In this document: positions 4,367 to 40,777 of the stretch, piece by piece
How the letters are laid out: the number at the start of each line of letters is the position of its first letter
How positions within the stretch are numbered: position 1 is the first letter of the stretch
Source: an uncultured Bacilli bacterium
Lineage (GTDB): Bacteria; Bacillota_I; Bacilli_A; RF39; UBA660
Assembly (NCBI GenBank): GCA_944329375.1
Contig: CALVIB010000006.1
Span: 1 to 51,154 of the forward strand
Length of the DNA: 51,154 nt
Direction: 5' to 3'
The notes under the pieces: generated by a model
The model's database searches: none
Seen by the model: the letters and a program-made list of their open reading frames with translations, nothing else
What the model was told of the DNA's origin: nothing
Program-made: the position numbers and the translations under genes

Positions 4367-4621
4367 TGATTCAACAATTAATTTAATAGCTGTACGTTCC
4401 TCGCCATCGATTACAATATCGGTAAAGGCTGGAATACATATTAAATTTTTGCCACTAGGAGCGACAAAACCTCTCGCAATTGCAATTGCTTTAATAGCTT
4501 GATTCAAAGCTCCAGCTCCAATTGCTTGAATTTCCACAGTTCCTTTCTCGCGAAAAACATTAGCTAAAGCTCCAGCTACTGAATTAGGATTGCTTTTAGC
4601 GCGTACTTTAAGTGTTTCCAT
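4361..4621 (-). CDS. spoVS: Stage V sporulation protein S
   Basis: An 86-aa protein matching SpoVS along its whole length (start METLKVRAKSNPNSVAGALA, Gly/Ala-rich core IGAGALNQAIKAI, end IKLIVESR). SpoVS is a small Alba-like protein needed for late spore-coat and septation events in Bacillus, and the family is conserved in spore-formers. AAGGAGG lies just upstream of the ATG. Its presence, with yqfC/yqfD and the sporulation sigma factor in this window, supports an endospore-forming ancestry. Single gene with its own terminator. Confidence 0.96.
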   Translation of the reverse strand: METLKVRAKSNPNSVAGALANVFREKGTVEIQAIGAGALNQAIKAIAIARGFVAPSGKNLICIPAFTDIVIDGEERTAIKLIVESR

Positions 4622-14512: not shown

Positions 14513-14538
14513 AGCTAGGAGAAATCCTAACTTTTTTT
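14513..14538. terminator. Terminator between the edge gene and the integrase
   Basis: AGCTAGGA-GAAA-TCCTAACT forms a stem with one mismatch, followed by a T run on the plus strand (14533-14538). It lies between two convergent genes and can serve the plus-strand gene. Confidence 0.75.
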
Positions 14539-15649
14539 ATTCTAATTTATCAATTAAATCAACAACTTCGTTTAAAGCAGAATTAAATAGATGAGTGTAA
14601 GTATTTAAAGTTTCTTCAATTTTAGTGTGTCCAAGATATTTAGCAACAACAGTTATATTAGCACCATTATTAACAAGTAGAGATGCACAAGAGTGCCTGA
14701 AGTCATGGATCCTAATTTGAGGTACACCAGCAAGTTCGCAGTTACGATTTTTTTTTGATGTAATGGTATTGCTAGCTACAGGAAAAGCATCACCAATAAC
14801 AAAATAATCATCATTGAATCCATACTCTTTAGATACCTCTTCTTTGAGCATTTTAAGGTCATTTAAGAGTACTTTATTGAGTGGTAGGGTTCTTATACTA
14901 CTTTTAGTCTTAGGAGTGGAAAATTGGAACTCTTTAACAGAACCACCACGATCAGTAATCTGCTTTTTTATTGATAAAGTTTTATTTACAAGATCAATAT
15001 TTTTCCAAGTTAATCCTCTAAGTTCTCCTTTTCTTAAACCACAGTAATATAATATCTCAAACATAACCTTTTTTTGTAATTCAGTTTCAACAGAAATAAA
15101 TTGTTTCCATTGGTCATAAGTAAAATACATCATCTCTTTAGGTATATCAGAAGAATTACTAAATTTAGTCATCTTAGAATAAACCTTATTTAAATTGAAA
15201 TCATACCATGTCATAGCAAAGTTCAATACTGACTTCAAAAACTTTAATATGTCATTTTTATATCGAGTTGATATATTTGATTCATTCATTTCTTTTTTCC
15301 AATTGTCATAGTGATTTATATTAAAATCTTTTAATTTAACATTTAATAAACATTTTAAATAATTCTTTTTATTACCATAGTTATAAAGAGTAGTAGGTTT
15401 AACTTCTATTGTTGATGTTCTATTTTCTACAAAAAGGTCAATCATTTCATCTATGGTTATTTTATCCATATTTTCATGTTTATGTATTTTTAATCTAAAT
15501 TCAAGCTCGGCTTCTTCTGCTTCTTTTTTTGTGGCATATTTTCCTGATTTATATTGTTTGTTCCTACCATCCATATCTTGATATCTTAATTTATAGAACC
15601 AGATACGGCCATCTTTAGTTTTGCCTTCTTTGGCTTTATATACTCCCAT
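14537..15649 (-). CDS. int: Tyrosine recombinase (phage-type integrase)
   Basis: A 370-aa integrase of the lambda/Tn916-like class. It has an N-terminal arm-binding domain with KLRYQDMDGRNKQYKSG (about residues 20-36), a SAM-like core-binding domain (about 65-165) and a catalytic domain. The catalytic set is complete: Arg in GLRKGELRG, Lys in TPKTKSS, HDFRHS giving His and Arg, LGHTKIEETL giving His, and Tyr in the NTYTHLF segment. It should integrate and excise the element at the GGTACC-N5-GGTACC core. Transcribed toward attL; the next minus-strand gene upstream is the repressor, with a plus-strand small RNA in between. Confidence 0.96.
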   Translation of the reverse strand: MGVYKAKEGKTKDGRIWFYKLRYQDMDGRNKQYKSGKYATKKEAEEAELEFRLKIHKHENMDKITIDEMIDLFVENRTSTIEVKPTTLYNYGNKKNYLKCLLNVKLKDFNINHYDNWKKEMNESNISTRYKNDILKFLKSVLNFAMTWYDFNLNKVYSKMTKFSNSSDIPKEMMYFTYDQWKQFISVETELQKKVMFEILYYCGLRKGELRGLTWKNIDLVNKTLSIKKQITDRGGSVKEFQFSTPKTKSSIRTLPLNKVLLNDLKMLKEEVSKEYGFNDDYFVIGDAFPVASNTITSKKNRNCELAGVPQIRIHDFRHSCASLLVNNGANITVVAKYLGHTKIEETLNTYTHLFNSALNEVVDLIDKLE

Positions 15650-15663
15650 TATATCGTCCTTTC

Positions 15664-15692
15664 TTGTATGATTTTCAATAAAGTGATATAAT
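15664..15692 (+). promoter_or_regulatory. Promoter of candidate antisense RNA C
   Basis: TTGTAT (15664-15669), 17-bp spacer ending in TGA, TATAAT (15687-15692): a near-consensus sigma-A promoter with an extended -10. It fires on the plus strand into the gap between the integrase and repressor genes, where no plus-strand gene exists. Confidence 0.75.
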
Positions 15693-15698
15693 GTAAAA

Positions 15699-15796
15699 GG
15701 AAACTCAATTACATTATTATCTAATAGTGTTTAAAGTTTGCTAGACTTTGTGGTTATCCAATTTGACTTACTGTTGGCGCAGTAGGTCTTTTTTTT
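15699..15796 (+). ncRNA. Candidate antisense immunity RNA C
   Basis: A transcript of about 98 nt runs from the promoter at 15664-15692 to a terminator at 15766-15796 (ACTTACTG-TTGGCG-CAGTAGGT, then C and eight T). Bases 15714-15748 are complementary, 33 of 35 positions, to 16660-16694 on the same (plus) strand. That target is the leader of the early operon, right up to its Shine-Dalgarno. So one plus-strand RNA could base-pair in trans with another plus-strand RNA and block translation or cause early termination. No reading frame with a ribosome-binding site lies inside. The idea parallels phage P4 and similar RNA-based immunity, but no family match is claimed. Confidence 0.68.
15714..15748 (+). 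repeat. Left arm of a 35-bp inverted repeat flanking the repressor region
   Basis: Inverted relative to 16660-16694 with two mismatches over 35 bp. Homology stops abruptly on both sides. It lies inside the predicted small RNA C. Confidence 0.92.
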
Positions 15797-16466
15797 ATTC
15801 TGCTTTACCAATTATTTCATAATCAGCACTTAAGTTAAATGTATGATATGGTTCATAATTGTTTTCTTCATTATAAACAGGAATCATAACATAATATATA
15901 ATTTCACGATCATCATTTTCATCATCTTCAACTATAAAAGGTGGCTCTTGGTCCTCATAGATTCTTACTATTTCTGCATCATGTCCTTTTCTTCTAATTA
16001 AGTAATCGCAATCATAATCTGAAACAAAGCTTGTAAGTTTAAAAGAAACAGGTTCACCTTTAGCATAACGAGGTTGCATAGGATTACATTCATGAGTAAT
16101 TGTTAATCCATAATGATTAGGTACTTGTTTTACATGTTGAATAACTCCCCAACCAGAGAAAAATTCGTCAGATGCTTGTTCTAATGTATAGCCATCAGGT
16201 ATTTTAGTTACAAAAGGATATTTATATACCAATACTTCAGCATTTGGATCCTCTAATAATCTGGATGAAGTTGTATTAAAGTAATTAGCAACTATTTCCA
16301 TTTTATCTGCACGTGGTAACATTGTACCTTTTAACCATTCACATATCGTAGAATATTTAATATTAATATCTTCAGATAATTTCTTTCTGCTAACATTTCT
16401 TAATTCCATGTATCTTTTAAGATTAGTAGCAAAACAAATTTTAGGATCAGTATTTTTATTATTCAT
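15795..16466 (-). CDS. CI-like repressor: XRE helix-turn-helix plus degenerate S24-like domain
   Basis: A 223-aa protein. Residues about 12-60 form an XRE helix-turn-helix (LKRYMELRNVSRKKLSEDI, then YSTICEWLKGTMLPRADK). The C-terminal half has the fold pattern of LexA/CI S24 domains, with GLTITHECNPMQPRYAKGE aligned to the active-site segment. The position of the nucleophile Ser (usually DSM) reads NPM, so self-cleavage looks impossible. It is transcribed from its own consensus promoter (16487-16515), divergent from the early operon, with repeated TTACA/TGTAA sites between. Expected to maintain the integrated state. Induction would then need an antirepressor or the small RNA rather than RecA. 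Confidence 0.88.
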   Translation of the reverse strand: MNNKNTDPKICFATNLKRYMELRNVSRKKLSEDINIKYSTICEWLKGTMLPRADKMEIVANYFNTTSSRLLEDPNAEVLVYKYPFVTKIPDGYTLEQASDEFFSGWGVIQHVKQVPNHYGLTITHECNPMQPRYAKGEPVSFKLTSFVSDYDCDYLIRRKGHDAEIVRIYEDQEPPFIVEDDENDDREIIYYVMIPVYNEENNYEPYHTFNLSADYEIIGKAE

Positions 16467-16486
16467 TACTTATCACCTCTGTTACC

Positions 16487-16515
16487 AATATACACCGATA
16501 TTTCCCTAAAGTCAA
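16487..16515 (-). promoter_or_regulatory. Repressor promoter
   Basis: On the minus strand: TTGACT (complement of 16510-16515), 17-bp spacer, TATATT (complement of 16487-16492). AGAGGTGA precedes the repressor ATG at 16466. Confidence 0.8.
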
Positions 16516-16521
16516 CTAAAA

Positions 16522-16594
16522 TTACATTTAAACTGTAAAAAATAAATTAAATTTATCAAAAACTATTTACAATATTCCATTTAAAATGTAAAAT
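16522..16594. promoter_or_regulatory. Operator region and early (divergent) promoter
   Basis: TTACA-N7-TGTAA at 16522-16538 lies just upstream of the repressor -35. The early promoter TTTACA (16566-16571), 17-bp spacer, TAAAAT (16589-16594) carries the same TTACA at its -35 and TGTAA at its -10. These shared half-sites are the probable binding sites of the CI-like repressor. Confidence 0.65.
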
Positions 16595-16629
16595 GTAGTT
16601 ATTAAAGGTAGAAAGTAGGTGGTTTATAT

Positions 16630-16659
16630 ATGATTATTTCCAATATAAATTGTAATTAG
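16630..16659 (+). CDS. Candidate 9-aa leader peptide of the early operon
   Basis: ATG at 16630, nine codons (MIISNINCN), TAG at 16657-16659. AGGTGG lies 7 bases before the ATG, a well-spaced ribosome-binding site. The stop is immediately followed by the right arm of the inverted repeat (16660). Ribosomes terminating here would compete with the antisense RNA for the leader. The peptide is too short to judge by composition; spacing and position are the evidence. Confidence 0.45.
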   Translation: MIISNINCN

Positions 16660-16694
16660 AAGTCTAGCAAAGTTTAAACACTATTAAATAATAA
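16660..16694 (+). repeat. Right arm of the 35-bp inverted repeat, in the early-operon leader
   Basis: Complementary (33/35) to 15714-15748 within small RNA C. It occupies the untranslated leader between the mini-ORF stop (16659) and the Shine-Dalgarno AAGGAG of the next gene (16693-16698), overlapping the first bases of that site. Confidence 0.92.
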
Positions 16695-16708
16695 GGAGAG
16701 TGATAAAT

Positions 16709-16966
16709 ATGAACAGTGAAAAACTATCTGCTGAACAATTATTACAAGTAGTATCAAGCCAATGGGCATCAGCGACTGATATTATGAAAATAGGCAGTGT
16801 TGGAAGAAATAAAGCATATGCCATTAGAAGTGAAATAGCCATATCCTTATATGGAGATGATTCTAAAGTTCGTAATAGAGGTTTGGTGCCTATGGTTGAA
16901 GTTTTAAAATATTTCAATATAGATATTAATTATCTAAAAGAGGTTTCCGTTTATGAGAAACAATAA
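16709..16966 (+). CDS. Small DNA-binding protein, excisionase/early-regulator type
   Basis: An 85-aa basic protein with a helix-turn-helix-like core (WASATDIMKIGSVGRNKAYA) and a second motif NRGLVPMVEVLKYF, the pattern seen in small ICE/phage accessory proteins such as DUF3173 or excisionases. ATG 16709 is chosen because AAGGAG lies at 16693-16698; the in-frame GTG at 16700 is too close. First gene of the early operon, directly controlled by the leader carrying the inverted repeat. A role in excision or in activating replication is inferred from position and fold only. Confidence 0.7.
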   Translation: MNSEKLSAEQLLQVVSSQWASATDIMKIGSVGRNKAYAIRSEIAISLYGDDSKVRNRGLVPMVEVLKYFNIDINYLKEVSVYEKQ

Positions 16967-17004
16967 TTGCAGTTTTATTTCATCTATATCAAAAGGAAAT
17001 AATT

Positions 17005-17874
17005 GTGGCTCAAAAAAGAATGTTTGATAAGGTTGTTACAACAAGTGACGACTTTTTAGAACTATCTGCTGAAGCTCAATGCTTATATTTTCATATGGGT
17101 ATGTTAGCAGATGATGATGGGCTAGCTAAAAATTATAGATCTTATATGAAGCTCATTGGAGCAACTGATGAAGATCTGCAATCTTTAATAGACAAATCTT
17201 TTATTTATAAATTTGATTCTGATGTGATCGCCATAAAACATTGGAAAATAAATAATACTGTTAGAAGCGATAGATATAGGCCTACTATTTTTCAAAATGA
17301 ATTTAGTAGGTTAGATATTGCTGAAAATAATGAATATATTATATTGGATACCAATGGTATACCAGATGGAAACCAAATAGATACCAAGAATAGTATAGAT
17401 AAGAATAGTATAGATAAGAATAGTAAAGATAAGTTAAGTAAAGAAAAGAATAGTTTAGAAAAGAAAAGAGAAGAAAAGAATAATATAGTGGAGAAGAGAG
17501 AAGATATAACTATCCTGTCTGGCAATGATGTTGTCGTAAAAGATGTTATTGATTATTTAAATAAGAAAATTAATTCTTCATACAATTGGGAAAACGAAAA
17601 GATAAAAGGACTTATTAATAATTGGATAGAAAATGGATACAAGATACTCGACTTTCAAATAGTTATTGATAAGAAGTTTGATGAATGGAAAGATACTAAA
17701 ATGGTAGTTCATTTAAATCCATACACATTATTTGGAGATAAATTTGAGAACTATTATAATCAGCCTGTAAAAAAGAAAACATTAAATGATATTTCTATGA
17801 AAGAATTAGAGGAAATGATTGAAGCAAGACAAAATGGAGAAGAAAATGAAAATGACCCATTTAGCTTTTATTAA
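17005..17874 (+). CDS. Phage-type replication initiator (DnaD-like N-terminus, phage C-terminal domain)
   Basis: A 289-aa replication protein. The N-terminal part (about 1-115; FDKVVTTSDDFLELSAEAQ, then LADDDGLAKN) is the winged-helix replisome-organiser module of Gram-positive phages. The C-terminal part (about 175-255; VIDYLNKKINSSYNWENEKI, ending NPYTLFGDKFENY) matches the conserved phage C-terminal domain found behind such modules. Between them is a Lys/Asp/Asn linker built of 5-residue repeats from seven 15-bp DNA units (17386-17490), a likely origin. GTG start after AAAAGGA. It gives the element autonomous replication. Confidence 0.88.
   Translation: MAQKRMFDKVVTTSDDFLELSAEAQCLYFHMGMLADDDGLAKNYRSYMKLIGATDEDLQSLIDKSFIYKFDSDVIAIKHWKINNTVRSDRYRPTIFQNEFSRLDIAENNEYIILDTNGIPDGNQIDTKNSIDKNSIDKNSKDKLSKEKNSLEKKREEKNNIVEKREDITILSGNDVVVKDVIDYLNKKINSSYNWENEKIKGLINNWIENGYKILDFQIVIDKKFDEWKDTKMVVHLNPYTLFGDKFENYYNQPVKKKTLNDISMKELEEMIEARQNGEENENDPFSFY
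17386..17490 (+). repeat. Seven 15-bp iteron-like repeats inside the replication gene
   Basis: Consecutive 15-bp units based on AAGAATAGTATAGAT: two exact copies (17386-17415), a third with one change, then four more diverged copies to 17490. They encode KNSID-like pentads in the linker of the initiator protein. In several phages the replication origin lies in the linker-coding part of the initiator gene, so these may be the initiator's binding sites. Confidence 0.75.
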
Positions 17875-18292
17875 GTGTATGAAATATCTAAATGCTTGTT
17901 ATTCTAAGAATATGGATCAAGAACAATTAGAAAGCTGGTTTGAATATTTTAGTGGTGTTTCTTATTCAACATTAAATAATGCAATAAAGGAAATAGTATC
18001 AGAATCAAAATACTTTCCTACAATTTCACAACTAAAAGATAAGTGCAAAGAAGTAAATAAAAAGTATATTATTTTGATTATAGATAAAATGAAAGAAAGT
18101 GGATACTTTAAAAAAGGAGTAGAGGAATTGACTGATTCTCATGCTAGTAATAGTTATTTTAAAACTCTTATGTGGTTAGAAGAGGAAAATCTACCAGAAT
18201 TTGTAGAAAACGATATTAAAGAATTTATTAAACAAAATAAACAACTAAACCAAAAGGACAAAAAAATATTAAGCAATGTTAAAAACTTGTAG
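17846..18292 (+). CDS. Helicase-loader-like protein (G39P family resemblance)
   Basis: A 148-aa helical protein. The N-terminal region (about 1-65; LESWFEYFSGVSYSTLNNAI, then ESKYFPTISQLKDKCKEV) has the spacing of the phage SPP1 G39P family, which brings the replicative helicase to the initiator-bound origin. ATG 17846 (or 17852) follows GGAGAAG and overlaps the initiator gene by 29 bp, as expected for a coupled replication operon. The remainder is a Lys-rich helical tail without a known domain. Assignment rests on pattern and context. Confidence 0.65.
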   Translation: MKMTHLAFIKCMKYLNACYSKNMDQEQLESWFEYFSGVSYSTLNNAIKEIVSESKYFPTISQLKDKCKEVNKKYIILIIDKMKESGYFKKGVEELTDSHASNSYFKTLMWLEEENLPEFVENDIKEFIKQNKQLNQKDKKILSNVKNL

Positions 18293-18644
18293 TATATGTG
18301 GGAAGATACATGATTTTAATATCGTTTGTAAAAGACCATATAGGTATAAAAAGAGTAGTAAGAGTGATAGATTCAGGAGTACATATGAATGGAAACAAAA
18401 AAGAGAAGAGGTTAAGAAAAGAGATGAGTATTTATGTCAGGCGTGTATAAATGGATATGAGGGATCACCATTTTTATTTAATTATAAAGACTTACAAGTA
18501 CATCATATAGTATCCATAGATGAAGATTATTCTAAACGATTAGATAGTACAAATCTAATAACATTATGTCCTATGCATCATAAAAGAGCTGAACAGGGAA
18601 TAATAACTAAAGAAGAATTATTAAAGATGATTGAAAAACAATAG
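18276..18644 (+). CDS. HNH endonuclease, phage packaging type
   Basis: A 122-aa HNH nuclease. An N-terminal zinc-like CSICGKIHDF lies at residues 5-14, a second Cys pair CQAC near 54-57, and the HNH core LQVHHIVSIDEDYS with NLITLCPMHHKRAE at about 70-105. Such proteins lie next to cos and the terminase genes in many siphophages and help cleave cos. Here nothing of a terminase follows, only a C-run (CCCCCC, 18650-18655) and a terminator. Overlaps the loader-like gene by 17 bp. Either the last packaging gene of a shrunken prophage or a helper-dependent packaging function of a satellite. Confidence 0.88.
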   Translation: MLKTCSICGKIHDFNIVCKRPYRYKKSSKSDRFRSTYEWKQKREEVKKRDEYLCQACINGYEGSPFLFNYKDLQVHHIVSIDEDYSKRLDSTNLITLCPMHHKRAEQGIITKEELLKMIEKQ

Positions 18645-18774
18645 ATATCCCCCCTAGGGTAGTGATAGTGAAAATTTATTTTTTTCTCCACCCACAGCCC
18701 ACTCAAATTCACACAATTTTAAGTTTTCCGTGAGTTTTTTGGAAAATAGAGTATTTGATAAAGATGAAATAATT
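18645..18774 (+). other. Possible cos-like region behind the HNH gene
   Basis: ATATCCCCCCTAGGGTAGTG directly follows the HNH stop and is unusually C/G-rich for this genome; a second C-rich patch (CTCCACCCACAGCCCACTC) follows near 18690. In HNH-encoding phages cos lies right after this gene. No cleavage site can be proven from sequence alone. Confidence 0.35.
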
Positions 18775-18796
18775 GGCTCGAATATGAGCCTTTTTT
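18775..18796 (+). terminator. Terminator of the early/replication operon
   Basis: GGCTC-GAATAT-GAGCC (18775-18790) followed by TTTTTT (18791-18796). It ends the run of plus-strand genes from 16709 to 18644. Confidence 0.85.
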
Positions 18797-18804
18797 AGTG
18801 CAAT

Positions 18805-18830
18805 AAAAAAGCATTAGCAAATACTAATAC
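18805..18830 (-). terminator. Minus-strand terminator of the frameshifted hypothetical gene
   Basis: GTATTAG and CTAATGC on the minus strand (18830-18811) form a 7-bp stem with a short loop, followed by a T run (complement of 18805-18810). It overlaps the restored stop codon at 18824-18826. Confidence 0.6.
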
Positions 18831-19146
18831 TTGATTATTTTAAAATCTAAAGGATCTTCGTTAATTATTTCTAATGAGTATTTTAACTTAAGCAATTTAA
18901 TGACTTCATCTTTAGTTTTTTATAATTTTTGCATATCAGATTAAAAGTATCAAATGCAGAATTAAAATGTTGTTTAAAAGTCGCTTCCCACATAGCATTT
19001 CTATAGAATGAACTGGCAATATAAAATGCTATAACTTCGGGAACAACATATTTTTCTAGATAACTATCATAGTTTTCATAAAAAGGATCAATGATCTTTT
19101 CACATTCTTCATCACTTATATCTTCATCAGTACATTTTCTTAGCAT
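18824..19146 (-). pseudogene. Hypothetical protein with a homopolymer frameshift
   Basis: From ATG 19146 (behind GGAGG) the frame encodes an acidic helical protein beginning MLRKCTDEDISDEECEKI. It runs into a stop at 18883 after an A6 run (plus-strand T6 at about 18916-18921). With one more A the reading continues as KTKDEVIKLLKLKYSLEIIN and reaches a stop at 18824, exactly at the terminator. I therefore read it as a gene of about 107 codons broken by a single-base loss, or a sequencing error. Family not recognised. It is convergent with the replication operon and may be a cargo gene. Confidence 0.7.
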
Positions 19147-19242
19147 AAACACCTCCGTGTAGTATATATCACTTATTATTAAAAAAATGTCAAATAAAAA
19201 AGGAAATATGCAAAAAAAAGATAATAATATTAGTAGAGGTAG

Positions 19243-19272
19243 TTGAAATGTGCTAAGAATTTATGATATAAT
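19243..19272 (+). promoter_or_regulatory. Promoter of the restriction-modification operon
   Basis: TTGAAA (19243-19248), 18-bp spacer, TATAAT (19267-19272) with an extended TG. It precedes the XRE controller gene at 19311. Confidence 0.7.
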
Positions 19273-19310
19273 ATAAACATGTAAGCAGATATGTTGATAG
19301 AGGTGTTAAT

Positions 19311-19655
19311 ATGAATAATAAATTGGGTAATTATATTGTAAATTTAAGAAATAAAAAGATGAATAAAATATCATCTCGACAAGTAGCAAAATTGCTGGAT
19401 ATTACACCACAATATATGTGTGATATTGAAAATGGTAGCAGAATTCCTTCGGCACAATTATTAGATAAAATAGTAAAAGTATTTAAGTTAAAGGATGAAG
19501 AGAAAAATAAATTATATGACTATGCAGCAACATCATCTAAGAATAATAAAGTCCCTGCAGATATAGCAAACTTTATCATTAATAATGACGAGGCTAAAAT
19601 TGTTATAAGACAAATGATGAATGAACAAAATATGGGGGGAGGTATAAATTTATGA
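19311..19655 (+). CDS. XRE-family controller of the restriction-modification locus
   Basis: A 114-aa protein with an XRE helix-turn-helix in residues 5-62 (ISSRQVAKLLDITPQYMCDI, then ENGSRIPSAQ) and a helical tail. Its stop overlaps the methyltransferase start by 4 bp, behind a GGGGGAGGT ribosome-binding site, so it is expressed with the methyltransferases. This arrangement suggests a controller protein that times methyltransferase and nuclease expression after entry into a new host. Canonical C-proteins are shorter (about 80 aa), and I see no obvious C-box. It could equally be an ordinary repressor. Confidence 0.8.
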   Translation: MNNKLGNYIVNLRNKKMNKISSRQVAKLLDITPQYMCDIENGSRIPSAQLLDKIVKVFKLKDEEKNKLYDYAATSSKNNKVPADIANFIINNDEAKIVIRQMMNEQNMGGGINL

Positions 19656-20644
19656 AAAAATATACATACATTGATTTATTTGCAGGAGCGGGTGGATTAT
19701 CGTTAGGATTTGATAATGCAGGATTTAAAAATTTATTTTCTGTAGAATTTGACAAAACTTATGCAAATACATATATGAAAAATTTTCCAGATCATAATAT
19801 GATAGTTGATGATATAAAAAATATAGATGACAAAAAAATAGAAAGTTTAGTTGGAAAGAATAAAGTTGATATTATAATTGGAGGTCCACCATGTCAAGGA
19901 TTTTCAATAGCAGGAAATATAGGTAGAAATTTTATTGATGATGATAGAAATAGACTTTTTAAAGAGTTTGTTAGGTTTGTAAAATTATTGCAACCAAGAA
20001 TGTTTATTATGGAAAATGTTGCTGCAATGGAAAGACATAATAAAGGAAAAACTATTAAAGAGATATCTGAAGAATTCAAAAAATGTGGTTATGACATAAA
20101 ACATAAAGTATTGCTTGCTTCAGATTATTCAGTGCCTCAAGAAAGAAGAAGAATATTTATTGTTGGAACAAAAAAAGATAATTCATTCCAATTTCCAAAA
20201 AAATGTAGTAAAATAGTAACTATAAAGGATGCTATAGATGATTTACCTAGGTTGGAAAGTGGAGAAATTAGTGATATTCCAAACCATGTTGCAATGAAAC
20301 ACTCTAAACAGATGTTAGAAAAAATGAGTTATATTAAAGATGGTGGAAATAGAATGGATATACCAGAAGATTTAAGACCTAAATCAGGAGATCCAAGAAA
20401 ATATATTAGATATGATAGTAAAAAGCCATCATATTGTGTAACTGGCGATATGAGAAAAATATTCCACTATTCTCAAAATAGGGCCCTAACATGTAGAGAA
20501 TTAGCTCGTATACAAACTTTCCCAGATACATTTATCTTCTATGGTAATTCTGGCCAAATTCAGCAACAAATTGGTAATGCTGTTCCACCATTGCTTGCTG
20601 AGAAGATGGCTATACAGGCAAAGGAGGTATTAGATAATGAGTAA
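19652..20644 (+). CDS. DNA (cytosine-5) methyltransferase
   Basis: A 330-aa C5 methyltransferase with motifs in standard order: motif I DLFAGAGGLSLGF (about 9-21), motif IV GGPPCQGFS with the catalytic Cys near residue 80, motif VI MENVAAME, motif VIII QERRRIFIVG, target-recognition region about 180-265, then motif IX RELARIQTFPDTF and motif X GNAVPPLLAEKMA. Complete and presumably active. It overlaps the following adenine methyltransferase by 8 bp. Pairing with an adenine methyltransferase suggests protection of the two strands of one asymmetric site, as in the HphI system. Recognition sequence cannot be read. Confidence 0.95.
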   Translation: MKKYTYIDLFAGAGGLSLGFDNAGFKNLFSVEFDKTYANTYMKNFPDHNMIVDDIKNIDDKKIESLVGKNKVDIIIGGPPCQGFSIAGNIGRNFIDDDRNRLFKEFVRFVKLLQPRMFIMENVAAMERHNKGKTIKEISEEFKKCGYDIKHKVLLASDYSVPQERRRIFIVGTKKDNSFQFPKKCSKIVTIKDAIDDLPRLESGEISDIPNHVAMKHSKQMLEKMSYIKDGGNRMDIPEDLRPKSGDPRKYIRYDSKKPSYCVTGDMRKIFHYSQNRALTCRELARIQTFPDTFIFYGNSGQIQQQIGNAVPPLLAEKMAIQAKEVLDNE

Positions 20645-21659
20645 GTATCCAAAAATTAATTACATTGGTAATAAAGCAAAATTAGTTGATTGGATAATAG
20701 AAAATCTTCCTTTGAAACGTGGAAAAGTATTGGATATATTTTCTGGCGGAAGTTCTGTATCATATGCATTAAAAGAAAATAATTATGAAGTAATATCTAA
20801 TGATGTTTTATACTCAAATTATGTAATTAGTAAGGCTATAATTGAAAATAGCTCCTTAAAATTAAATAATGAAATTATTGAAAAAGATATACCGACAAAT
20901 CTTATAGAGAAAAAATATGAGAAAATAAAGTTTTTATCTAATAGATTATATTTTGATGATGAAGTAAAAGAATTAGCAAAACTAATATGTATTTCTGAAT
21001 CTTTAGATGGTTATGAAAAATATATGTTTCTAGCTTTATTGCGAAGAGCAATGATAAGAAAATTACCATATTCAAGAATGAATGTGCCATGGAATCAAAT
21101 AGTTAAACTTCGTGATGAAGATTATAGTTATATGAAATATAAAAGAAAAAGAGCATATCATAATCTATCATTCAAACAACATATGTTTGATAACTTAAAT
21201 AATTATAATGAATCTGTATTTGACAATGGTAAAAATAATTTATCATATAATTTAGATTCATTTGAAATGTTAAAGAAAGTTAAAGATCCATTAGATATTA
21301 TTTATATGGATCCTCCATATCCTAAGACGATGAATAAATATGGAGAATTTTATGGACTTTTTGATACTGTATTTGAAGAAGAAAAAGAATATATAGATTT
21401 CTCAGCAAATGATAAGTTCATGCAAAACATGGAAAAGCTAGTTCAGAAGTGTATTAATAAAACAAAATACATAGTTATTAGTCTTAATAATAAGACATCT
21501 CCAAGTGCAGAAGAACTAAAGCAAATGTTAGAAAAATATGGTAATGTTTCAATCAAATATAAAGATTTTCAATATAAAGTTACTGGAAAAGAAAATAAAA
21601 ATACAACGGTTGAAATACTAATTATTGTTAAACTAAAAAACGAGAATAATTTGAAGTGA
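20637..21659 (+). CDS. DNA N6-adenine methyltransferase, D12 class
   Basis: A 340-aa Dam-like enzyme. An N-terminal SAM-binding segment YPKINYIGNKAKLVDWI with DIFSGGSSVSYAL (about residues 4-48) is followed by the catalytic DPPYPKTMNKYG near 225. Class alpha (D12) order: SAM motif before DPPY. The stop codon TGA (21657-21659) lies inside the left end of the IS3 element that begins at 21652. The last two residues therefore come from the insertion, and the original C-terminus may be slightly altered. Coupled to the C5 methyltransferase; both modify the host against the nuclease encoded beyond the IS. Confidence 0.93.
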   Translation: MSKYPKINYIGNKAKLVDWIIENLPLKRGKVLDIFSGGSSVSYALKENNYEVISNDVLYSNYVISKAIIENSSLKLNNEIIEKDIPTNLIEKKYEKIKFLSNRLYFDDEVKELAKLICISESLDGYEKYMFLALLRRAMIRKLPYSRMNVPWNQIVKLRDEDYSYMKYKRKRAYHNLSFKQHMFDNLNNYNESVFDNGKNNLSYNLDSFEMLKKVKDPLDIIYMDPPYPKTMNKYGEFYGLFDTVFEEEKEYIDFSANDKFMQNMEKLVQKCINKTKYIVISLNNKTSPSAEELKQMLEKYGNVSIKYKDFQYKVTGKENKNTTVEILIIVKLKNENNLK

Positions 21660-21734
21660 ACCCCATTTTTGACACTTTGAAAAAAGAGAATAATAATATA
21701 AAATAGTATCTCAAAGAAAGGAGATACTATTTTT

Positions 21735-22007
21735 ATGGGTAAACATTATTCTAAAGAACTAAAGGAAGAAGTTGTAAAAAAATACCTTAATGGTGAAGGT
21801 ACCTTAAATTCATTACAAAAAGAATATAATATTTCTCTTAAAACAATATATCATTGGTTAGAAAAAGAAAGATTATATCATACACAAGAAAATGATATTC
21901 ATCATAAAAGAGGTAGAACTAAAGAAGAAAATATTGACTACAAAGAAAGATATGAAATATTAAAAAAATACCAAGCCTTCCTAAAGGCACAACGAGAGAG
22001 AAAGTAA
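21735..22007 (+). CDS. IS3-family transposase OrfA
   Basis: A 90-aa helix-turn-helix protein (YSKELKEEVVKKYLNGEGTL, then KEYNISLKTIYHWLEK) that binds the transposon ends; the tail is a leucine-zipper-like helix. It ends QRERK-stop. The orfB frame is -1, and slipping back one base at the final AAAG joins it to VTFINLYINRYKLSNMC, the usual OrfAB fusion point. AAAGGAGATACT precedes the ATG. Confidence 0.9.
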   Translation: MGKHYSKELKEEVVKKYLNGEGTLNSLQKEYNISLKTIYHWLEKERLYHTQENDIHHKRGRTKEENIDYKERYEILKKYQAFLKAQRERK

Positions 22008-22048
22008 CTTTTATTAATTTATATATTAATAGGTATAAACTTTCTAAT

Positions 22049-22810
22049 ATGTGTGCCGTTCTAGAAATAAGTAGAAGAACTTATTATAAATATAGGAATA
22101 CTGATGATCCAGATTATTTAGATTATTTAATGATAAAAAATATATTTAATAAGTCTAAAGGCACATATGGATATCGTAGGATAACTGAAGGCTTAAAGAT
22201 TGAATATGGTGTAATATTCAATCATAAAAAGGTCGCTAGAATAATGAAAAAATATTATTTGAAGCCAGAATATGTAAAAAGAACTAGACCACATACTTAC
22301 AAAAGGATTGAAGAAAATGTTCAACCTAATATATTAAAAAGAAATTTTAAAGCTGATAAACCTAATCAAAAATGGACAACTGATATAACATATTTAATAT
22401 TTAAAAATAAGCGATTATATTTATCAACTATATTAGATTTATATGACAGAAAAGTTGTTGCTTATAAAATATCAAAATTTAATAATAATCAACTTGTTAT
22501 GGATACATTAAATGATGCAATATCCAAAAGAAAAGATGTACATGGACTTATCATTCATAGTGATCAAGGATTCCAATATACATCTTTCGAATACAAATCC
22601 ATTTGTAAATCTAACGGAATTACTATTTCAATGTCCCGAAAAGGTACTCCAATAGATGATTCACCAATGGAAAGCTGGCATGGTATCCTTAAAAAGGAAA
22701 CCTTGCATAACAATAATATCACATCTTTACAAGAATACCAAAAACTTGTAGAAGATTGGATACTATTTTACAACACAGATAGATTAAAGTCAAAAAAACT
22801 CAAGAAATAA
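22049..22810 (+). CDS. IS3-family transposase OrfB, C-terminally truncated
   Basis: A 253-aa DDE integrase-core protein. HTH_21-like segment GTYGYRRITEGLKIEYG; catalytic Asp in TTDITYL, Asp in IHSDQGFQYT, Glu in SPMESWHGILKKE. It normally ends with a segment like ERIQLKL-SPxxYR; here it stops at DRLKSKKLKK, roughly 12-15 residues early, consistent with loss of the right end of the IS. The -1 frame is open upstream of ATG 22049 to the orfA stop, so the natural product is the OrfAB fusion. Probably inactive for transposition without the right end. Confidence 0.88.
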   Translation: MCAVLEISRRTYYKYRNTDDPDYLDYLMIKNIFNKSKGTYGYRRITEGLKIEYGVIFNHKKVARIMKKYYLKPEYVKRTRPHTYKRIEENVQPNILKRNFKADKPNQKWTTDITYLIFKNKRLYLSTILDLYDRKVVAYKISKFNNNQLVMDTLNDAISKRKDVHGLIIHSDQGFQYTSFEYKSICKSNGITISMSRKGTPIDDSPMESWHGILKKETLHNNNITSLQEYQKLVEDWILFYNTDRLKSKKLKK

Positions 22811-40084: not shown

Positions 40085-40564
40085 ATGGAAAAATTTACAA
40101 GAGTCATGCGTGGTTATGATCCAGATGAAGTAAATAACTTTTTAGATCAGGTTATCAAAAGAGTAGAAAAAATGATAGCCGATATAGATGCGAAAAATAA
40201 ACTAATTGTCGATAAAAATGATGAAATCAGAAAATTAAAATTAAAATTAGAAGAAACAACCGCACTAAAAGAAAAATTAGAACAATATGAACGCATGGAA
40301 AACACTTTAAATAGAGCCATAATCATGGCCCAAAAAACCTCAGACCAATTAAAAATAGCCGCTCATCATGAAAGCGAAATAATCTTAGATGATGCGAAGA
40401 AAAACGCTAGTAGAATAGTAAATGATGCATTAATCAAAGCTGAAAAAATAGAAAATGATGCTGAAATGACTAAAAGAAATATTAATGTTTTAAAACGTAG
40501 ACTTAAAAGCATCATTGAATCACAATTAGATATAATTAATGATATAGACAAATTAGATATATAA
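40085..40564 (+). CDS. divIVA: Division/polarity protein DivIVA
   Basis: A 159-aa coiled-coil protein. The N-terminal membrane-curvature module is slightly reduced (FTRVMRGYDPDEVNNFLDQV at about 4-23). A long coiled coil spans about 25-80 and a second one in the C-terminal half. DivIVA marks septa and poles. The start at 40085 follows GAGGTGAGG with a spacing of about 8. It is followed by the isoleucine T-box leader, the classical divIVA-(T-box)-ileS neighbourhood. Confidence 0.92.
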   Translation: MEKFTRVMRGYDPDEVNNFLDQVIKRVEKMIADIDAKNKLIVDKNDEIRKLKLKLEETTALKEKLEQYERMENTLNRAIIMAQKTSDQLKIAAHHESEIILDDAKKNASRIVNDALIKAEKIENDAEMTKRNINVLKRRLKSIIESQLDIINDIDKLDI

Positions 40565-40571
40565 AAACATA

Positions 40572-40777
40572 TGATAGAGAGCGTATATTAAAAAAGTTTA
40601 AAGAGAGTTAGTGAATGGTGGAAACTAATAACGATTTTAATATATAAATCACTCTTGATGTTTCTTTTTGAATAAAGTAGATAAGAACGGTAACGCGTTA
40701 TAGTTATTGAGAGTATTTAAAAAATAAAATAAGGTGGTACCGCGGGAAAACTCGTCCTTAACTAAGGACGTTTTTTT
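40572..40777 (+). promoter_or_regulatory. Isoleucyl T-box leader
   Basis: Canonical T-box: AGAGAGCG near 40576-40583, GGTGG at 40617-40621 in the distal stem I loop, specifier AUC at 40648-40650 (isoleucine), T-box AGGTGGTACCGCGG at 40732-40745, and terminator CGTCCTT-AACT-AAGGACG (40753-40770) with seven T. The first gene behind it is a hydrolase; ileS is the fourth, so the whole run hydrolase-murF-ddl-ileS should respond to uncharged tRNA-Ile. Confidence 0.93.

Follow-up and report, generated by a model that had tools for sequence, protein, structure and literature searches.

Phage immunity based on an RNA is known from a small number of enterobacterial elements. The CI RNA of the satellite phage P4 originates in the leader of the operon under its control and works through termination, and the c4 RNA of phages P1 and P7 is processed from a transcript common to its target. 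The c4 RNA (Citron & Schuster 1990, cited in PMC12197685; Rfam C4) is a phage antisense RNA acting on the ant leader in lysogens. The sar and sas RNAs of P22 and the OOP RNA of lambda are antisense RNAs with their own promoter and terminator, used in lysogeny-related control (PMC12197685, PMC7067206). In the plasmid copy-control RNAs CopA, ColE1 RNAI and pMV158 RNAII, recognition through the loop sets the specificity group (PMC4485353).

We analysed a stretch of 51,154 nucleotides (hereafter, the window; GC 27%) from the genome of an uncultured Bacilli bacterium (1.19 Mb in 48 contigs), in which an earlier note had proposed an antisense RNA directed against the leader of a phage early operon. 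With a probability of about 0.8, the RNA represents a new family of trans-acting antisense RNAs, whose pairing with the leader, starting from a loop, would silence an excisionase-type gene and the early operon, so that the element stays integrated. Such a family would work in the manner of phage antisense immunity RNAs and plasmid loop-recognition RNAs.

The RNA would resemble P1/P7 c4 and its P22 counterpart as a small structured phage antisense RNA against the leader of a lysogeny-breaking gene, beside a protein repressor. It also has the extended leader complementarity, kept by co-variation, of trans-acting phage antisense RNAs. It differs from c4 in its separate promoter and terminator, its location beyond the repressor gene, its target gene and the lack of an Rfam match; Rfam C4 gave no match at the gathering threshold over the window, nor at E values up to 5 over 15600-15850. 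Co-transcription with the target, a feature of C4, was not found, as the RNA lies upstream of the divergent early promoter with the repressor gene between. Because RNA and target are separate transcription units split by this gene, the RNA must act in trans. Like P4 CI, it would direct RNA-based immunity at the early operon of the element that carries it, but it has an independent gene, and no intrinsic terminator occurs at the target above chance. Unlike P22 sar and sas and lambda OOP, which are transcribed across their targets, it is encoded about 0.3-3 kb from the target site. The predicted hairpin-loop recognition and the pairing of a repressor with an antisense RNA are reminiscent of the plasmid copy-control RNAs; those are encoded opposite their targets, whereas this RNA is trans-encoded, occurs in integrating phages and has no evident role in replication control. 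A literature search, with most subscription papers outside its coverage, found no description of such an RNA.

The predicted RNA gene and its target in the window

The plus-strand RNA gene lies between the integrase and repressor genes, both on the minus strand, and the divergent plus-strand early operon begins at 16709 (Table 1). The coordinates and the 33/35 complementarity of the two arms, as claimed in the earlier note, were both exact on recomputation. With a score of 29, the arm pair is the top inverted match of the window; the next outside local hairpins scored 20, and the best scores in 20 Markov-1 simulations of the 51-kb window were 14-19.

Table 1. Features of the RNA locus and its neighbours in the window
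Feature	Positions	Strand	Basis
Putative antisense RNA promoter, TTGTAT-17-TATAAT with extended TG	15664..15692	+	Sequence; extended -10 recurs in 40/49 relatives
Predicted gene of an antisense RNA (about 98 nt) with three-way junction and terminator	15699..15796	+	Covariance model, fold z, helix covariation
Pairing arm A of the RNA	15714..15748	+	33/35 complementary to 16660-16694
Specificity hairpin AAAGT-TTGCTAG-ACTTT, loop 15739-15745	15734..15750	+	Near-constant stem, loop variable among relatives
Intrinsic terminator of the RNA	15765..15796	+	Terminator scan; kept in relatives
Arm B, target in the leader of the early operon; complement of the loop, CTAGCAA, 16664-16670	16660..16694	+	Complementarity to arm A
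Early-operon promoter-like site TTTACA-17-TAAAAT	16566..16594	+	10/12 match; number not above chance expectation
First gene of the early operon (85 aa), presumably encoding a directionality factor or regulator; Shine-Dalgarno GGAGA 16695-16699	16709..16966	+	
Phage repressor, Cro/C1-type HTH	15795..16466	-	Family matches
Tyrosine integrase	14537..15649	-	PF00589, E 1e-27; about 50 nt separate its start codon from the 5' end of the RNA

The proposed promoter sequence with its extended TG was confirmed, and the same element recurs in relatives (see below); a generic promoter scan missed it because its -35 element is too weak. For the terminator expected after an RNA of about 98 nt, a scan found 15765-15788 followed by a U-run (1 found, 0.5 expected). 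The window RNA has a fold of -24.1 kcal/mol (z = -3.2 against shuffles), and the covariance model described below matched 15698-15798 with 88.1 bits, the window being a training sequence of that model. The target arm had been described as ending at the Shine-Dalgarno sequence. Its position in the leader stands, and its end was corrected, since the arm stops directly before GGAGA. The first early gene probably starts at ATG 16709 rather than at GTG 16700.

The element containing the RNA (region 14537-22810) encodes, besides integrase and repressor, a DnaD-like helicase loader, an HNH endonuclease, DNA methyltransferases and a transposase; chromosomal-type genes follow. No virion genes were recognised among its scanned proteins, and the element has the appearance of a prophage remnant or of a small and defective element. 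As it seemingly has no virion genes, its own function could be lost. The window also contains a tRNA-Gly(TCC) gene close to its start (71-144) and a T-box leader at 40562-40762 (111.8 bits). Two candidates were discarded: a minus-strand match to RatA (27.4 bits, gathering 49, E 0.085) as an AT-rich chance alignment, and a second place in the same genome (C8) as a chance match beside capsule genes.

An RNA family with a conserved junction, next to phage recombinases

A DNA search of 293 related genomes gave three clear cognates of the window RNA. One of them (G087) has an arm sequence related to that of the window, and the other two (G046 and G053) have the layout of the window with arms that differ in sequence, the two arms of each element matching one another at 26/26 and 27/27 positions. 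A pattern search of viral and genome contigs with the common terminator yielded about 20 matched-arm loci, some of which represent one element more than once. A covariance model of the three-way junction, containing no target information, was built from 14 aligned sequences. The fold consists of a closing stem P1, P2 and the specificity hairpin P3, followed by the terminator. The junction structure was given by hand for the alignment; RNAalifold did not recover it from the raw MAFFT alignment, because RNA types were misaligned there. The helices show compensatory changes, with pairs kept in 92% of the cells of the 14-sequence alignment, and the observed helix values were reached by at most 1/500 shuffles on any measure.

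Model matches were obtained in 35 of the 386 genomes of the host family and in 3 additional genomes of a sister family in the class sample. No further host group came from the phylum sample, and none of the INPHARED phages searched shows the RNA. The relatives number dozens and lie in prophages of small-genome uncultured Bacilli-type bacteria. A -10 element, mostly 5-6 nt 5' of the RNA, is present in 45/49 relatives, and the extended TG in 40/49; the promoter region was outside the search model, so this recurrence is independent of it.

A recombinase adjoins the RNA in 46 of 48 loci (31 tyrosine, Phage_integrase; 15 serine, Resolvase). Its start codon, on the opposite strand, lies 28-74 nt from the RNA in nearly every element, whichever type it belongs to. 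This proximity could suggest that the RNA, transcribed against the repressor-integrase transcript and fully antisense to the int 5' region, chiefly regulates the integrase, the early leader being a decoy that titrates the RNA when the operon is on. We consider this improbable because the early-operon arm stays just 5' of the ribosome-binding site whatever gene follows, a position that a mere decoy would not need. With the early leader as the main target, an extra effect on Int is still possible, since the RNA is antisense to any repressor-integrase read-through transcript.

Co-variation of the RNA with the early leader

The earlier note had set the behaviour of the two arms in relatives as a test that could refute its reading, and the arms passed it. 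For each RNA, with the terminator excluded, the best complement was sought within 4 kb, and its p value was determined against shuffled RNAs. A complement downstream on the same strand was significant (p<=0.01) in 36 of the 46 non-redundant elements with enough sequence, as compared with 0/46, 2/45 and 1/45 for the three control combinations of strand and direction. About 10 model matches have no significant arm; some of them lie near a contig end, and others simply have none. One RNA (L109) has no target because the early operon is missing from its contig.

The specificity of the pairing was evaluated with a 28 x 28 matrix of RNAs and targets from elements selected for an own score of >=19. 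The mean score was 25.1 for own targets and 9.2 for others, and the own target was strictly best in 26 of the 28 rows; the two other rows come from pairs of elements whose loops are identical. As these elements were preselected by own score, the test with 46 elements is less biased. The stem of P3 is near-constant (TTTAGT/ACTAAA or AAAGT/ACTTT), and its loop of 6-8 nt has about 20 sequence variants, each of which is complementary to the target of its own element. In those hairpins of canonical form that could be aligned with their targets, mismatches sit in the stem and none in the loop. This pattern fits loop-first recognition, in which the initial contact would be a kissing interaction. At the level of sequence, RNA-RNA pairing is well established by the co-variation.

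A second set of loci was chosen by protein, namely six loci on viral contigs with relatives of the window's target protein. Five of these (L216-L220, several of them near-identical to one another) have the RNA, as found by the model, together with a matching arm, and TTCGCAG and TTGGTAG are new among their loops; in the sixth (L215), both RNA and arm are absent. Relatives of the window target protein are always preceded by the target arm where the RNA is present, and a matched arm is present as well at an Xis-type locus (L168). No arms were found with more distant Xis homologues from other bacteria, which argues that the system belongs to a single group of phages. Arms are likewise absent from four loci with related Xis (Butyrivibrio, Fusobacterium and faecal phage). 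Three genomes have two model matches each, and the arms differ in both genomes where both matches have a candidate target; this is compatible with specificity groups without proving them.

Individual loci deviate from the common layout. In L216, the target sequence is in tandem duplicate in the leader (about 2500-2580, GTTAGTCTACCAAACTAAA repeated). In L131 (3985-4383), the gap between RNA and target is only 286 nt with no repressor ORF found in it, so that the arms are kept and the repressor is seemingly lost. L159 has a 49-nt inverted match (score 34) between an arm at about 2682 and the region before an Xis-like gene at 4501; it appears in HTH coding sequence on both sides and is probably due to related repressor and cro genes, not to an RNA.

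The inverted arms flank the repressor in a recombinase-bearing element, and it could be supposed that they act as DNA sites, either as repeats bounding an immunity segment that can invert or as sites for a DNA-binding protein. This is very improbable: the promoter, junction structure and terminator occur at one arm only, and the compensatory changes in the RNA helices speak against DNA sites. The orientation is constant in all significant cases and the arm core varies among elements, unlike a recombination site, and an invertible segment was rejected on these grounds. The antisense-RNA reading is strongly supported by the conserved promoter, structure and terminator, the co-varying arms and the mostly constant spacing to the start codon.

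Target genes and a possible mode of action

The target mostly ends 11-31 nt 5' of the start codon of the next gene and often overlaps the cro stop codon. It appears to be the leader of whichever gene comes first behind P_R or cro, a gene that would be excisionase-like or lead into one. The family of this gene tracks that of the recombinase. The 347-aa MKLPN-type tyrosine integrases pair with a phrog_6058 protein, those of about 370 aa with an HTH-like protein of the window type, directly or behind a small membrane protein (the first gene in some elements), and the serine recombinases with several tiny protein families.

Those targets that resemble anything known resemble an excisionase. The best Foldseek match of the phrog_6058 protein was Xis of mycobacteriophage Pukovnik (probability 0.99, but E 0.047), a likeness of predicted fold that is suggestive only. 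This target type also has weak matches to the phrog_2655 excisionase (E 0.043) and TIGR01764 (E 0.15, below cut-off), and a homologue is annotated as putative Xis in phage Idris. The window target protein had no match in family and profile searches. Its predicted structure (pLDDT 81, fair) gave many unrelated matches and, among them, weak ones to BldC, winged-helix proteins and RdfS; these are uninformative, and an excisionase fold was not assigned. An excisionase or directionality factor is thus reasonably supported as the target for one family, and would by inference be the target in the remaining ones.

In eight serine elements (L045, L117, L135, L121, L052, L113, L125 and L127), tiny proteins are encoded directly behind the target, such as KLKVIVTNPP..., LLxKLxELYEKQE... 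and MCIVKTQKI...; these are candidates for new recombination directionality factors. Four elements (L126, L128, L137 and L139) have small lipoprotein-like ORFs between RNA and repressor, possibly superinfection-exclusion genes.

We propose that the RNA of about 98 nt would be transcribed independently from its own promoter, and that its specificity hairpin would first contact the complementary loop sequence of the leader by loop-loop kissing. Pairing would then spread over about 20-35 bp just 5' of the ribosome-binding site, and would block ribosome loading and/or make the mRNA accessible to RNase III. In this way both the excisionase-type gene and the downstream part of the early operon would stay off, and the element would remain integrated.

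The RNA might instead work chiefly by ending transcription of the early operon prematurely, as described for P4 CI RNA. In many elements the target lies between cro and the remaining early operon, and this location is constant while the first gene varies, as such a mechanism could explain. We regard it as unlikely, since an intrinsic terminator hairpin at or behind the target is missing in 30 of the 32 scanned elements, and the 2 found compare with 0.8 expected by chance. The attenuation suggested in the earlier note as one outcome of pairing is not borne out in its intrinsic-terminator form, which makes classical attenuation less likely than a block of ribosome access or cleavage by RNase III; Rho-dependent termination once translation is lost is conceivable.

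If the antisense RNA is present in lysogens, superinfection immunity follows logically: as it acts in trans, incoming phages with the same leader loop should be silenced too, and phages with a common loop are predicted to cross-silence. More tentatively, and at somewhat less than even odds, the loop would be an immunity label, where a near-constant scaffold carries at least 20 exchangeable loops that choose the phages to be silenced, with or without a repressor, and where the RNA is coupled to a recombinase, tyrosine or serine, and its cognate directionality factor.

The sequence evidence by itself indicates that phages of uncultured Bacilli carry a widespread and self-consistent family of RNAs tied to the excision decision. 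The natural loop-target pairs offer a ready set for studies of RNA-RNA recognition, and, if the proposal is true, immunity groups of these phages would be predictable from a loop sequence of 6-8 nt.
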